A stretch of DNA of 22,333 nucleotides. Source: a virus. Position 1 is the stretch's first letter, and every line of letters starts with the position of its first letter. Both the position numbers and the translations under genes were made by a program. The stretch spans positions 1 through 22,333 of the IMG/VR virus record IMGVR_UViG_3300044846_001688; one strand, written 5' to 3'. A model generated the notes under the pieces. It did not search any database. It was not told where the DNA came from and saw only the letters and a list, made by a program, of their open reading frames with translations. Below, in pieces: positions 1,327 to 10,100 of this stretch.

Positions 1327-1995
1327 TTACGGCCCAGCATCGCGCCATACGCCAGTGCTGTAGAAGTACAGCTTGTTGTTCGTGGTATCGACCACGATCG
1401 GCGCGAAGCCGGTCACGGTCGTCGGCGTTCCCGTCGGCGTGCCGGCGCAGGTCGGCACATAGAGGAACCCGTCCGTCGCGGACGTGGCAACCGCGCCAGC
1501 GCCGACCGACACGTTGCCAGCAGCAGTGATGACCACGCGAGGCAACCCGGCGTTGCTGAACGTCATCGTCAGCGCCGCTTGGGTCTGGCTGATGATGGCG
1601 TTGCCAGCCGTGTCCACGCCGAACAGTGTGCCAGTGAGCCCGGTGTTTGCATTACCGGCAGACATGGCCGCCTGCGTCGATCCGGCACGGTAGAGGCTCA
1701 ACACTTGGGTCGGAGCGTTCCCGGCAGCGATGCCGACGTTTCCGTTGGATTCGACCCGCACCGCGTTCGTGCTGTTGGTCGAAATGCCGACGGTGTTGGC
1801 AGCAGGCAGATACACGCCGTTCGCCGGGACTGTCGTGCCGGTCACCGCGACACCAGCCGCAGAGACTTGGCGTCCCGCAGTCAGGTCTGCGACCGTAGCG
1901 CGGAAGGTGCTGCCACTCTGCACAAGCGGCACGGATTCGGTGCCAGCGAGCGGGGTGGTAGCGGTGGACAGTTGCGAAATTTTCTTGTCAGCCAT
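1327..1995 (-). CDS. Second tail fibre / receptor-associated protein
   Basis: This 222-residue protein begins MADKKISQLSTATTPLAGTE and continues VPLVQSGSTFRATVADLTAG, a start common in phage tail-fibre and head-fibre proteins ('ISQLP..tpLtGtElvPvvQ'). The middle is low-complexity and beta-rich, with repeats such as VESNGNVGI and ITAAGNVSV, typical of trimeric fibres. The end (APIVVDTTNNKLYFYSTGVW) resembles a small terminal domain found on many fibre proteins. The ATG is preceded by AGGAG and lies 13 bases after the tailspike gene. Base composition is GC-rich, unlike the end of the tailspike. It is probably a virion fibre or a partner of the tailspike; no enzymatic motif is visible. Confidence 0.7.
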   Translation of the reverse strand: MADKKISQLSTATTPLAGTESVPLVQSGSTFRATVADLTAGRQVSAAGVAVTGTTVPANGVYLPAANTVGISTNSTNAVRVESNGNVGIAAGNAPTQVLSLYRAGSTQAAMSAGNANTGLTGTLFGVDTAGNAIISQTQAALTMTFSNAGLPRVVITAAGNVSVGAGAVATSATDGFLYVPTCAGTPTGTPTTVTGFAPIVVDTTNNKLYFYSTGVWRDAGP

Positions 1996-2008
1996 GATGC
2001 TCTCCTAA

Positions 2009-4150
2009 TCAGGTCTGGGTGCCGACGACGGTGCCGTCTGTGTCTGATGTTGGCGCAGAAGAATATTTGATCCTCAACACATTAGCGCTGTCAGTCCACA
2101 TAAATGTATACAAGCCGAATTGCGATCCAGAAATAACGGAAGGATTGAGCCATCCAGCACCAGAAGTTAAAAAATTACCCGATCCATCTGTTAGAACGCT
2201 TCCAATATAAAGGCGTGTAGCGTCCCCGGTCTTAACCTCATATCCGCTGGCAGAGTCAACGACGGGAACTGTCGTGCTGAACTCTACGTCTGCAGCGCCA
2301 GAACTTTCAAACAGATAACAATAATAGCGAGTGCTTACAGCAAGTCCGCTATTTGTTTTGTTAATTCCAAGCGCCGGAACTTGAAGCTCGACCCACTCTC
2401 CGGTTGTGCTTCCGGCATTAACTCCACGCAGTCTGAATGGCGTGGAATTTCCTTTGGCTAGGTTAATGCCTGTTGTCTGAACAGGACGGAATCGAAATTC
2501 CGTCGAGCTAAGAACTGCAGACGCACAGCTCTGTTGGATGGTGTCAAATTGCCATCCAACAAATCGAGACTGTCCAGCATAATCAAAGTTTTGCCAGATA
2601 GTGTTCCTTACTCGGCAGCTTTTTAGGTCTGCATTTGCCCCGCTGATCACAAAGGCTTGAATGTTGTTGTTTCCAGATGTGGCGCGAACCACAATGTTTT
2701 CTATTTTTACGCCTCGCACAAGATTTGAAGCGGCGTCAAACTCCGCGCCGCGTATTGCGCTGTAGGCATCGCTGTTGTAGATATTCCCACCAGACCAAAT
2801 CAATCCATCTACACCGTCGCAATAAAAGGATCGGGTTTTGTTGTTTTCAAATACGGTGTTTTCCATCATCACCGTATTTGCCAAACCTGAGCCCCCTTGA
2901 ATGTACAGGCCGACGTTTTCACAGAGCACGAACGCCGCTTGATCCGTTGTTAAAACTTGACCCTTCCAGCGCATACCGCCAGAGGTCGGGGGAACCGCTG
3001 CAGATACCGTGCCGCACGCTTGAATGAAAACCTGTTGCAAGCGAAGGAATGATGTTTCGTTGTGCGAGCCAGTAACATCAACGTCGAACCCCCAGCCAGC
3101 GCAATTTTCGATTCTGCATTGGTTAAGTTCGACATTGTTCGAGCCATCCGCATCACCTTCATTCATGGTGATTTGAATGCCGTCTCCAGACAATCCCGTG
3201 ACCCATACGTCTTTCAGAGACACGTTATATGCGCGACGCAGCGTTACCCCACGGGCGGCGCTCGGCGCTCCCAATGTCGTGATCTTCATCCCAGCAATCG
3301 AAACATATAGCTGAAATTTTAGTGTGGTGCTGGTATCTATGTTGATTGCCGAACCAGAAGAAACGCGGGTATCGAGGATTGTCTTGTCCGGGCCTTCACC
3401 AATTAAGTTAAGACCAGGCGTGAAAACCTGAGACGAAGTTGTGACCCAATTAAGCTGCGAATTTAGACGGTATGTTCCAGCAGGAATAAATACTGGCCTC
3501 CCAGCTGCGGCATTAATGGCGTTTTGAATCGGGATGCTGTCGTCAGCAGCCCCATCACCCACCGCACCGAAGTCCTTCACGCTCACCACATCGCGCAACT
3601 TGTCGTTCACCGAGCGCGGCACCGCGCCGGTCCCGGACTGCGTGAAGATGTCCGTCGTGGCATCCACCCCGACCGTCGCCACCGGCAGACCGTTCGCATC
3701 GAAGGAGAGGAACTTGCTCGCCCGAGCACTGGCCGCAGGAACCTGCGATGACATCACCGCATCAGATGCAGGGAACTTGATCGATCGCGCAGACTCCTCG
3801 CCGAGCTGCTGCGTGAGCATGGTCACCTTGTCGAGCGCGGTCTCGAGCGACTCAGCCGGAAGCCGGTCGTTCGGCAGCAGGTCGGTCTCCTGCGTCGCCT
3901 CGATGTTGCGCCGGATCGTGACCGTCACCGCCGCAGCAGGGGCCGTGAGCATCGTCACCGTGCCACCAGAGGACACCCCAGCACCCGCCACCGTGTAGTT
4001 GGTGGTCAGCGCCTGGACGGTCTCGGTCGTGCCAGAGCGCAGGATGACCTGCAGGTCAGCCGCCTCGAGGAAGTAGAACGGCACCGCAAAGGCGGTCGTC
4101 GAACCGTTGCCGGTATAACTGACCTTGCTGGTTGTCGATGAGACTGTCAT
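2009..4150 (-). CDS. Tailspike: T7 gp17-like anchor plus pectate-lyase-type beta-helix
   Basis: The 713-residue protein has two parts. Residues about 1-135 resemble the T7 tail-fibre N-terminal domain, which attaches the fibre to the tail (YTGNGSTTAFAVPFYFLEAA near the start; LPNDRLPAESLETALDKVTM around 90-115). From about residue 187 comes the pectate-lyase-superfamily entry motif VSVKDFGAVGDGAADDS, then IQNAIN and VFIPAGTYRL, followed by a long beta-helix and a beta-rich end. Such spikes bind and often cleave surface polysaccharide; catalytic residues cannot be assigned by eye. The ATG is 2 bases after the upstream stop, with AAGGA inside that gene's end. DNA encoding residues after about 207 is markedly AT-rich, while the N-terminal part is GC-rich like the rest of the phage, suggesting a swapped receptor-binding domain. 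Confidence 0.88.
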   Translation of the reverse strand: MTVSSTTSKVSYTGNGSTTAFAVPFYFLEAADLQVILRSGTTETVQALTTNYTVAGAGVSSGGTVTMLTAPAAAVTVTIRRNIEATQETDLLPNDRLPAESLETALDKVTMLTQQLGEESARSIKFPASDAVMSSQVPAASARASKFLSFDANGLPVATVGVDATTDIFTQSGTGAVPRSVNDKLRDVVSVKDFGAVGDGAADDSIPIQNAINAAAGRPVFIPAGTYRLNSQLNWVTTSSQVFTPGLNLIGEGPDKTILDTRVSSGSAINIDTSTTLKFQLYVSIAGMKITTLGAPSAARGVTLRRAYNVSLKDVWVTGLSGDGIQITMNEGDADGSNNVELNQCRIENCAGWGFDVDVTGSHNETSFLRLQQVFIQACGTVSAAVPPTSGGMRWKGQVLTTDQAAFVLCENVGLYIQGGSGLANTVMMENTVFENNKTRSFYCDGVDGLIWSGGNIYNSDAYSAIRGAEFDAASNLVRGVKIENIVVRATSGNNNIQAFVISGANADLKSCRVRNTIWQNFDYAGQSRFVGWQFDTIQQSCASAVLSSTEFRFRPVQTTGINLAKGNSTPFRLRGVNAGSTTGEWVELQVPALGINKTNSGLAVSTRYYCYLFESSGAADVEFSTTVPVVDSASGYEVKTGDATRLYIGSVLTDGSGNFLTSGAGWLNPSVISGSQFGLYTFMWTDSANVLRIKYSSAPTSDTDGTVVGTQT
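2012..3530 (-). other. AT-rich island covering the tailspike receptor-binding region
   Basis: Hand counts of 60-base lines give 27/60 GC at 2041, 27/60 at 2101 and 26/60 at 3421. Counts outside the island are 38/60 at 3541 and 39/60 at 3661. The change falls within about 50 bases of the codons for the DFGAVGDG motif, and the other edge coincides with the end of the gene. This fits replacement of the beta-helix part from a source of different composition. Confidence 0.75.
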
Positions 4151-7100: not shown

Positions 7101-10100
7101 TGAGCGCCGTCATCAGCGCCTCGCCGCTCTCGAACCCGAGCATCTCGGCTGCGGTGTCGATGTCGGTGCCGCCGTCCTTGGTGTAGACCTTCCGCAGGAA
7201 CCGGGGCATCCGCTTCAGGTACTCGGAGCCGAACCGGTTCTCCAGCGCTTGGCGGGAGAGCTTGACGGGGACGCCGTCCGGCAGCTTGCCCTCAGTCAGG
7301 ATCGCGGCTGCGCGGTAGGCCGGCGAGGAGTCCACCTCCTCGGTGACCTTCTCCAGCATCTTGGCGCGCTCGGCCTTCCACCACTTCTCGCGCTCGCGCT
7401 GGTACTCGCGGATGAGCCGCCCCTGCAACTTCTCCTTCGCGGCCTCTCCGGCAGCCTCTGCGGTCTTCTTGTAGGCCGCGAACTCGGCCTCCGTCATGCC
7501 GGCATCCTGCGCGCTGGCGAACACCTCCCGCACGTCGAGCTCGGCATTGGCCGACTCGATCTCCTTGTCGGTCGCGTAGATGCGGTCGAACACGCCGCGC
7601 ACCTCGTCGTTCAGCGTGACATCGAGCCGAGTCAGGGTGCGATAAATTAGCGTCATCCACGCCCGAGCCCGCTGGAAGATGCCGCGCAGGGACGCGCTCG
7701 GCGCGTTGCCCTCCATCAAGTACGCCTCGTTCCCACGAGCAAACATCTCGTGCTGGGCAACCCCTATCTCGGAGCGGTTCTTGACCTTGAACCACTTCAT
7801 CAGGGTCTCAGCGTCGGCCTTAATCTGCGGACTTGCGTCAGCCCGCTCGGCAAGGTCGAGCAGCACCTCGAGGTAGAAATGGCCGGTCTCGTGGATGAAG
7901 GTGGACAGGTCGGCCTTCTCAAGCAGCCCGATGCGGACATTGCGGTCGGCACCAAACTGGATAAACCCGCGCTTGTCTTCGGGGGAGACGGCTTGGAAAA
8001 AAGATTTTTCCTCAACAAATGGCGCTCTAATTCTTCGCCCCGCATCTCTTAGAGAACTGGTTACATTTTTTTTGCCTCTGTTAACTTCAGAATTAACAAA
8101 GTCACGAACAATAGCATCCCAATTTCCCAAAAATTTTCCTGCATTTTCTTCGAAATACCCATACAAAAAGCCCAAACCTTCATCTAAAACATTTTCTCGA
8201 CCAAACGATCTTGTTTCATCTGAAACATAGGTTGCTTCCTCAAAAAGCTCTTCAGCCAAATTTTCAAGTTCCTGGGCGGTCATCTTGTTAAGCTGATCCG
8301 CGTGCAACTCCGCAGGAGGAGGTGCTTTTTTTACTTGAAGATTGTCTATATAGATTCTTTTTCTATCTTGCCCAAACTGCATCCCAACATCACCCATCCC
8401 CTCGCTCGCCTTGGCGATCAGCGCCTTGACGGTCGCGTTGTCGGTGGTCGTGACATCGATACCTTGCTGCCCGAGGAACTGCTCCAGTCCCTCAAGCGCG
8501 TCGGCAAGCTCGGCCAGATCCGCCCGCTCCTTCCCGGGCATGAACACGCCCTCACCGCGGAACTCCCGGTCCATGGCATCGAGGAATGTCTGCTCGGTCT
8601 CGCCGACATCGAACCCGGCCTCGAGCGCGAGCTCGCGGGCCTCGTCGAACGTCATGCCGGTCTCGGACACCAACGCCTTCTCGCCGACCCGCCGGTTGTC
8701 GCGGTCCCAAAGCTTGGCATCGCGGGCGCCGAGCTCGCCGCCCTGATCCTGCACCCCGCCCCGCTCACGCAGGAACTCGGCCAGGGACTTGCCGTAGATT
8801 TCCCGCCGGCTCGGGATGTCGCCGCTGCGGAGCCGATCGATGAGGGGGTCGAGCGCGGTGTCCACCCCGGCCCGGGCCTGCAGGATGTCCGGCAGCGGGG
8901 TGACCACACTGAGCCCATACTGCTCATGCAGGGCGGCAGGGTCGATGCCGCTACGCTGCGCCAGAGCGTTTATGGCGCGTGAGTACATGGTCGCGTATGT
9001 GTCAGCGGTCGCCCTGTCAAATCGCCCCAGAAGCTGCCCTAGGACCTCCTGCTTCACCTGTTCGATGGCGGGGGTCTCAACCTCCACCCCCTCCTGCTCC
9101 ATCATGGTCTGGATCTCGGCCTCGACCTCCTTGCGGCGGGCCTCGAGCGCCTCCACCTCCCGGATGGTCAGGTCGCCCTGCGCCAACCGGACGTCCTTCA
9201 TCAGGCCGCTGTGGTGCGGGGTCGGGGCGAGCCGGGTCGCGTAGGCTTCGATGGGGATGACCACGTCGCTGCCGGTGGCGACCGCTTCGGTGTAGTTGGT
9301 CGCGCCGACCTCGTTGGCGACCTGTTCCGGGTCGACGTTCTGGCTCTGCCAATACTGGGTGAATTGGTCGGCGGGGATGAAGACGTTCTCGACCGGCCCC
9401 TGCTCGCGCAGGCGGGCAACATAGTCTTGGAACACCTGCGGCAACCGCTCGCGGAGCTTGGACTCACCCGCCGCCTCGCCGAGCGCCTGCATGAACTGCT
9501 GGGTCTGGTTGGCCTTGCGGACCTCCCGCACGTTGCTGACCGTGGAGATTGCGGCACCCGGCAGGCCGACACCGGCACCGCCGGCAAAGCCCGCCGCGCC
9601 GGACTCTAGCACCCGCATCAGGTCGCTGCCGGCCGCCTCCGGCGCGAACTCCTGCCCGCTGACGCCCTGCGCCAACTCGCGCCCGAGGATGACACCGAGC
9701 TCTTGCAGCGACTCGGTGACGCCCTCGACGCTCGAGGCCGCTAGCCACTTCTTGCCCGCCTGCGCGATGGCATTGCGGAAGGTCGGGCGCGCCAGCAGGG
9801 TCTTGATGGCCTCACGCGAACCGGCGCCGAGCAGCCGGTCGAGACCCGGGATCATCTTGGCGAGCGCGAGGTCGCCGACCGTCTCAAGGCCGGCATTCAG
9901 CAGACCCGCCGCAGCCGCGGCCCCGCGCGCGACCGCAGGGTCAATCAACTGGCCGGACTCGTCCCGCATCTGCTCGTACTCGGCGAACGCGAACCCGGCC
10001 TCGGCCTTGTAGTTGTAGACCGTCGTGGCGGTGATGAATCCGGTGCGGCCACCGAAGAAGAACCCGCCAGGGACCGTAAGGATTTCCTCCGGCAGCGCCA

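Follow-up and report, generated by a model that had tools for sequence, protein, structure and literature searches.

Domain exchange in tailspikes of known phages

The exchange of receptor-binding domains is a well-documented way for phages to change what they bind. Between genera of E. coli phages, such exchange was described for domains with conserved motifs before and after them, and recombination was proposed from the conserved DNA that flanks these domains on either side (Pas et al., 2023, PMC10408124). Across known phages, a survey of their protein families revealed domain mosaicism that emerged recently, with tail spikes among the most enriched classes (Smug et al., 2023, PMC10684548). 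For T7-like and Klebsiella phages, an architecture of anchor and depolymerase has been described (Latka et al., 2019, PMC6872550).

The tailspike gene analyzed here is located on a 22,333-bp IMG/VR virus record, the whole of which is called the window in the following, and consists of an anchor, a short joint, a beta-helix head, and a C-terminal tag (Table 1). Its joint may correspond to the 44-nt motif one of Pas et al. (PMC10408124). The conserved stretch at the 3' side is coding in our case, being the C-terminal tag of the protein, whereas in the E. coli phages it is non-coding, terminator-like, and located downstream of the gene. Furthermore, the heads of Pas et al. (PMC10408124) are tied to O-antigen serogroups. 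With the mosaic proteins of Smug et al. (PMC10684548), the tailspike has in common that a shared fragment of at least 90% identity is combined with an unrelated remainder. However, that work surveyed families of known phages, while we describe one case from an uncultivated lineage with edges at the nucleotide level. In contrast to the proteins discussed by Latka et al. (PMC6872550), no C-terminal chaperone was identified, and a short shared tag is found at the end instead.

Table 1. Features of the tailspike locus; positions refer to the window unless another locus is named.
Feature	Position	Strand	Remarks
Tailspike gene	2009..4150	minus	713 aa, single intact ORF
Anchor, aa 1-190	3581..4150	minus	Lineage-typical tail-attachment domain; GC3 0.83
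Joint, aa 169-200 (QSGTGAVPRSVNDKLRDVVSVKDFGAVGDG)	3551..3646	minus	Common to phages with otherwise unrelated anchors
5' edge interval of the exchanged part	3530..3605		From exact runs, identity decay, and GC edge
Foreign head, beta-helix, about aa 201-550	2501..3550	minus	Predicted from PF12708, AlphaFold2, Foldseek, and relatives L080-L082
Foreign head, C-terminal beta domains, about aa 569-676	2123..2446	minus	Predicted by AlphaFold2; 59-67% identical in L080-L082
C-terminal tag, about aa 681-713 (..FMWTDSANVLRIKYSSAPTSDTDGTVVGTQT)	2012..2110	minus	Common to many unrelated phage tail proteins
Exact 114-nt match with L019	1925..2038		Last 9 tailspike codons, stop, and into the fibre gene; its high end is the 3' edge
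Downstream fibre gene, 222 aa	1327..1995	minus	Phage-typical composition; 90-91% identical in L005 and L019
Inserts in the 2196-aa virion protein, relatives	L003:3677-4162; L005:2832-4238; L007:3114-4247; L159:2924-4504; L017:126-4235

Architecture of the tailspike

A relationship of the anchor with the N-terminus of T7-type tail fibres was found in two ways: it matches PHROG tail families down to 2e-45 over aa 1-216, and it matches the solved tail-fibre chains 8ck1/28lx with E = 2e-15, with which the fold comparison by Foldseek agrees. The Pfam T7 model reached 23.7 bits on the anchor, slightly below its cut-off of 25.2. HTVC010P-type Pelagibacter phages are at most 52% identical to the anchor over aa 14-154.

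The head is a right-handed beta-helix according to three types of evidence. PF12708 matches aa 189-341 with 52 bits against a cut-off of 27. An AlphaFold2 model, calculated for the monomer from 11 sequences of the window and its relatives (mean pLDDT 72, pTM 0.60), predicts a beta-helix at about residues 195-550, followed by beta domains and a C-terminal hairpin, while aa 83-173 of the anchor form a region of low confidence. Foldseek matched the model to the tailspikes of Dettilon, CBA120 TSP2, Sf6, and K2-2 and to the beta-helix sugar enzyme AlgE4. Since the whole-chain TM-scores of these matches are low, they support the beta-helix fold but not an enzyme class.

Anchor and head have different nearest relatives

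Searched separately, the two parts of the protein proved to have different nearest relatives, as the preliminary description of this DNA had expected of a domain swap: L002-L009 and L025 for the anchor, and L080-L082 and L231, which bear unrelated anchors, for the head. Relatives of the anchor were detected at 78 loci in viral contigs, and the nine just named are 92-93% identical to it. This one anchor type bears three different heads. Besides the window, L002, L003, and L025 combine a near-identical anchor with a head that has no detectable similarity to the window head (in L003 the anchor is 93% identical and the head gave no match at E 1e-4), while L004-L009 combine it with a head of the L005 type that is 43% identical. 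In the L005 lineage this head is placed between an upstream gene with 94% and a downstream fibre gene with 90% identity to the window. The closest relatives of the window head (L080, L081, L082, and L231) are 58-60% identical over all 514 residues. Similarity of L082 and L231 to the anchor query starts at residue 169 only, within the joint that precedes DFGAVGDG; L080 and L081 gave no significant match with this query. By sequence comparison, the head is closest to those of phages with unrelated anchors. In a maximum-likelihood tree of the heads, the window grouped with L080/L081/L082 (support 100/99), and the heads of L005, L019, and L084 were found elsewhere.

One might speculate that a head of the L005 type diverged fast and in place, driven by selection from host receptors and without any exchange. 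The L005-type head is homologous to the window head along its whole length, despite the identity of only 43%, and tag and flanking genes are likewise the same in both. However, heads on unrelated anchors are closer to the window head than this sister head is. Forcing the window head together with those of L005 and L019 costs 228 log units, so that the tree rejects such a group (AU p = 3.8e-7), and selection on the protein leaves unexplained why GC3 is 0.48 in the window head and 0.79 in the L005 head. Divergence in place is thus extremely unlikely, unless missing intermediates have produced the grouping with L080-L082 artificially.

We found neither one closest homologue for the full length of the protein nor an equal composition shift in all relatives. 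Instead, the nearest relatives of the two parts differ, their trees disagree, and a fragment of at least 90% identity stands beside a dissimilar remainder. The tailspike is very probably a natural chimera, in which the lineage's own anchor carries a head of different ancestry.

A donor with more than about 60% identity was found neither in the viral contigs nor by a narrower profile scan. Among cultivated phages no head donor was detected, plasmids gave no match, and bacterial genome contigs yielded only two distant relatives of the head, with 36% and, over a part, 44% identity. Nearly all relatives come from uncultivated records without an assigned host. These distant relatives, L140:2899-4404 and L141:10001-11212, come from a Sphingomonadaceae bin (36%) and from Bradyrhizobium (44%, partial), and possibly lie in prophages.

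Base composition of the head

Maximum-likelihood segmentation delivered one low-GC block at this locus, spanning 1968-3529 with 48.7% GC, with flanks of 64.6% before and 64.1% after it. The support intervals of its edges are 1952-2059 on the left and 3488-3561 on the right, with likelihood-ratio statistics of 90 and 53 for the two edges. Within the tailspike, GC3 falls from about 0.83 (aa 1-190) to about 0.48 (aa 191-713) and GC from about 64% to about 49%. Elsewhere in the window, there is no second stretch of 1542 nt below 58.2% GC and no second stretch of 514 codons with GC3 below 0.70. The codon-usage score of the head is -0.37, while the lowest score among the other genes of the window is 0.05.

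The preliminary description had given 43-45% GC for the DNA of the beta-helix. The drop as such is confirmed; these values, however, are those of low lines, the mean of the head being 49%. Its placement of one break at DFGAVGDG (3551-3574) agrees with the right edge of the low-GC block, and the neighboring fibre gene indeed returns to the composition of the phage, with a GC3 of 0.77. The other break had been assigned to the end of the gene, but the stop codon is about 30 nt away from the 3' edge, which falls within the last 9-10 codons.

Low GC alone is weak evidence, since the heads of most relatives are also lower in GC3 than their anchors. Consequently, a drop in GC might be a general property of beta-helix heads, caused by codon or structural bias or by circulation in lower-GC phages, and as such uninformative on recent exchange. 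Besides the trend among the relatives, L082 fits this explanation, as its related head resides in a phage of 64% GC and has a low GC3 of 0.64 as well. In contrast, no other member of the close anchor group shows a drop as large as that of the window (0.83 to 0.48), the next being L016 (0.86 to 0.57), and among the heads of the family GC3 is correlated with the GC of the genome around them (r = 0.84 for 15 non-redundant loci). In addition, the exchange is evident from relationships that are independent of composition. We therefore consider it very unlikely that a general drop accounts for the locus.

From the fit of GC3 to genome GC, the window head deviates by 2.7 residual SD toward lower values, and a genome GC of about 51% would fit its composition. 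This supports the origin of the head from a lower-GC phage with too little time since then for adjustment, and it gives no date. The head is newly acquired, as had been suggested, only in the sense that it arrived later than the separation from the lineages of L003 and L005.

Edges of the exchanged part

Upstream of the head, the window and L003 share 93% DNA identity until about 3538, including perfect matches of 50 and 66 nt. The final long exact run with L003/L025 stops at 3605, from where identity fades through the joint and reaches background by about 3530. On the other side, the exact match with L019 begins in the codons of DGTVVGTQT; just upstream of it, identity is about half, then lower. 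Judged from these edge alignments, the neighborhood is therefore a mosaic, L003-like before the head and L019-like after it, with a third source for the head itself. Conserved stretches are present at both edges, namely the joint, whose consensus GTGAVxRxVxxKLRDxVSVKDFGAVGDG occurs on unrelated anchors, and the C-terminal tag. In the alignments, both edges fall within stretches that stay conserved even between phages whose anchors or heads differ.

The record could also be a misassembly that joined two phages at these two conserved edges. The window is a single metagenomic record, and its 3' junction is located at a stretch of 114 nt that is identical to another phage, a typical place for assemblers to join contigs. 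However, both junctions are in frame and the ORF of 713 aa is intact, the downstream DNA is not that of L019 itself but diverges after 1925, and at the 5' edge there is no long exact match with L005, the longest nearby run being 15 nt. Furthermore, independent records demonstrate other head exchanges near the same edge in this lineage. For these reasons, we judge a misassembly highly unlikely. A genuine exchange of the receptor-binding module with precise bounds, as put forward earlier, is supported by sequence, tree, and composition.

Among spikes, 28 have anchors that are at least about 70% identical, and these hold 10 head superfamilies. A second, independent exchange in the lineage became visible when L019:2962-5133 was compared with L005:8001-10172, which share one head (about 98%) on different anchors (about 75% DNA identity). 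Here the break is found near nt 500 of the gene, and DFGAVGDG follows about 80 nt downstream of it. Crossover positions thus differ between events, so that the edges are regional rather than fixed sites.

The neighboring genes have features of their own. Compared with L003 and L025, the fibre gene is a mosaic, too: the DNA of its first 30 codons (1995-1906) and of its final portion, beginning at about 1504, is 81-85% identical to that of L003, while its middle gave no DNA match with L003. Adjoining the fibre gene, a gene for a putative nuclease of the YbcO type (PF07102, E = 1e-37) at 1035-1325 on the plus strand converges on the tail genes.

The C-terminal tag

The tag follows the pattern W..DS.G.LRIK...PTSDTDGT[VI]VGTQ[TSA]-stop over about 33 residues. 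Scanning the codons of viral contigs for DTDGT[VI]VGTQ delivered 87 stretches, and at the fetched loci the motif is at most 2 residues away from the ORF end in 70 of 73 non-redundant ORFs. In the 59 proteins of sufficient length, the 150 residues preceding the tag form 29 clusters with no detectable mutual similarity, while in an alignment of 40 tags the W, the P, D-T-D-G-T, and V-G-T-Q are invariant. Tag-bearing loci span 31 to 66% GC; besides the window (2012-2110, minus strand), they comprise L095, L097, L142-L227, and L228:6001-6114.

The tag was also found at the end of gp67, a small connector of the N4-like phage Possum, and it matches related Enterobacteria phage proteins. The likeness to gp67 of this Pectobacterium phage (PMC9569702) includes the position of the tag at the extreme C-terminus and another spike gene that comes after the gene; however, the body of gp67 is a small connector, whereas the window protein is a beta-helix. 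In the passages on gp67, its authors propose helix-helix docking and do not mention the tag. No family in Pfam or NCBIfam covers the tag, solved structures contain no real match, and a similar stretch is internal to one PHROG tail family. The literal string of the tag was absent from the literature searched, which covered a minority of subscription papers.

Two explanations of the tag were rejected. It is not a dedicated DNA recombination site, since synonymous positions vary freely and follow the gene's own GC (r = 0.87 between the GC3 of tag and gene body). Neither is it generally docked by a downstream protein with N-terminal KISxLT..TPLAGTE, as such a gene comes next in only 8 of 67 tagged genes, all eight having heads of the window's family. 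Tentatively, we propose an undescribed portable end-module that might cap or register the trimer or dock a partner, and that might also offer exchanged heads a shared landing place on the 3' side, like the DFGAVGDG joint at the 5' side; this seems possible to us rather than probable. The idea of a landing place is based on the tag being shared by unrelated spikes and fibres. If the tag is a general end-module, it would allow simple recognition of spike and fibre ends in metagenomes and provide a testable account of the neat 3' edge of the exchange.

A variable insert in a large virion protein

A second low-GC block of the window (7909-8373, minus strand, 43% GC, GC3 0.37) is located inside a 2196-aa protein (10743-4153), a large virion protein of the polyvalent type with LPD22 at its N-terminus. 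Polyvalent proteins with such domains are already known (PMC5512222). The inserts that relatives contain at the same place are very dissimilar, with lengths of 0.5 to 4.1 kb and with GNAT-like (weak), DUF7178, PBECR5 nuclease family, and RadC contents, between flanks conserved at 87-95% and about 90%. The region resembles a slot for exchangeable cargo, with an HExxH metallopeptidase-like motif downstream of it.

Possible course and meaning of the head exchange

The head would have been swapped by recombination between two phages in one cell or host. Before this event, the recipient may have borne a head of the L005/L019 type, which is 43% identical and comes with the same tag and the same next fibre gene, and the genome of the donor probably had a GC content of about 51%. 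Short similarity at the protein-conserved edges may guide, or at least tolerate, crossovers, with frame and fold being kept; the conservation of the edges can be read from the alignments, whereas their guiding role is what we infer. Crossovers within the joint and the tag are most likely, since similarity is highest there and joining at these places preserves the fold. A new beta-helix head of the depolymerase or adhesin kind would alter the surface polysaccharide that is bound or cut, and this kind of domain suggests that the host range may have changed as a result.

The locus thus presents a head exchange with clean bounds and independent support, found in an uncultivated phage lineage of which the only cultivated relatives are distant ones, Pelagibacter phages of the HTVC010P kind. 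With 10 head superfamilies on 28 related anchors, this lineage swaps its heads often.
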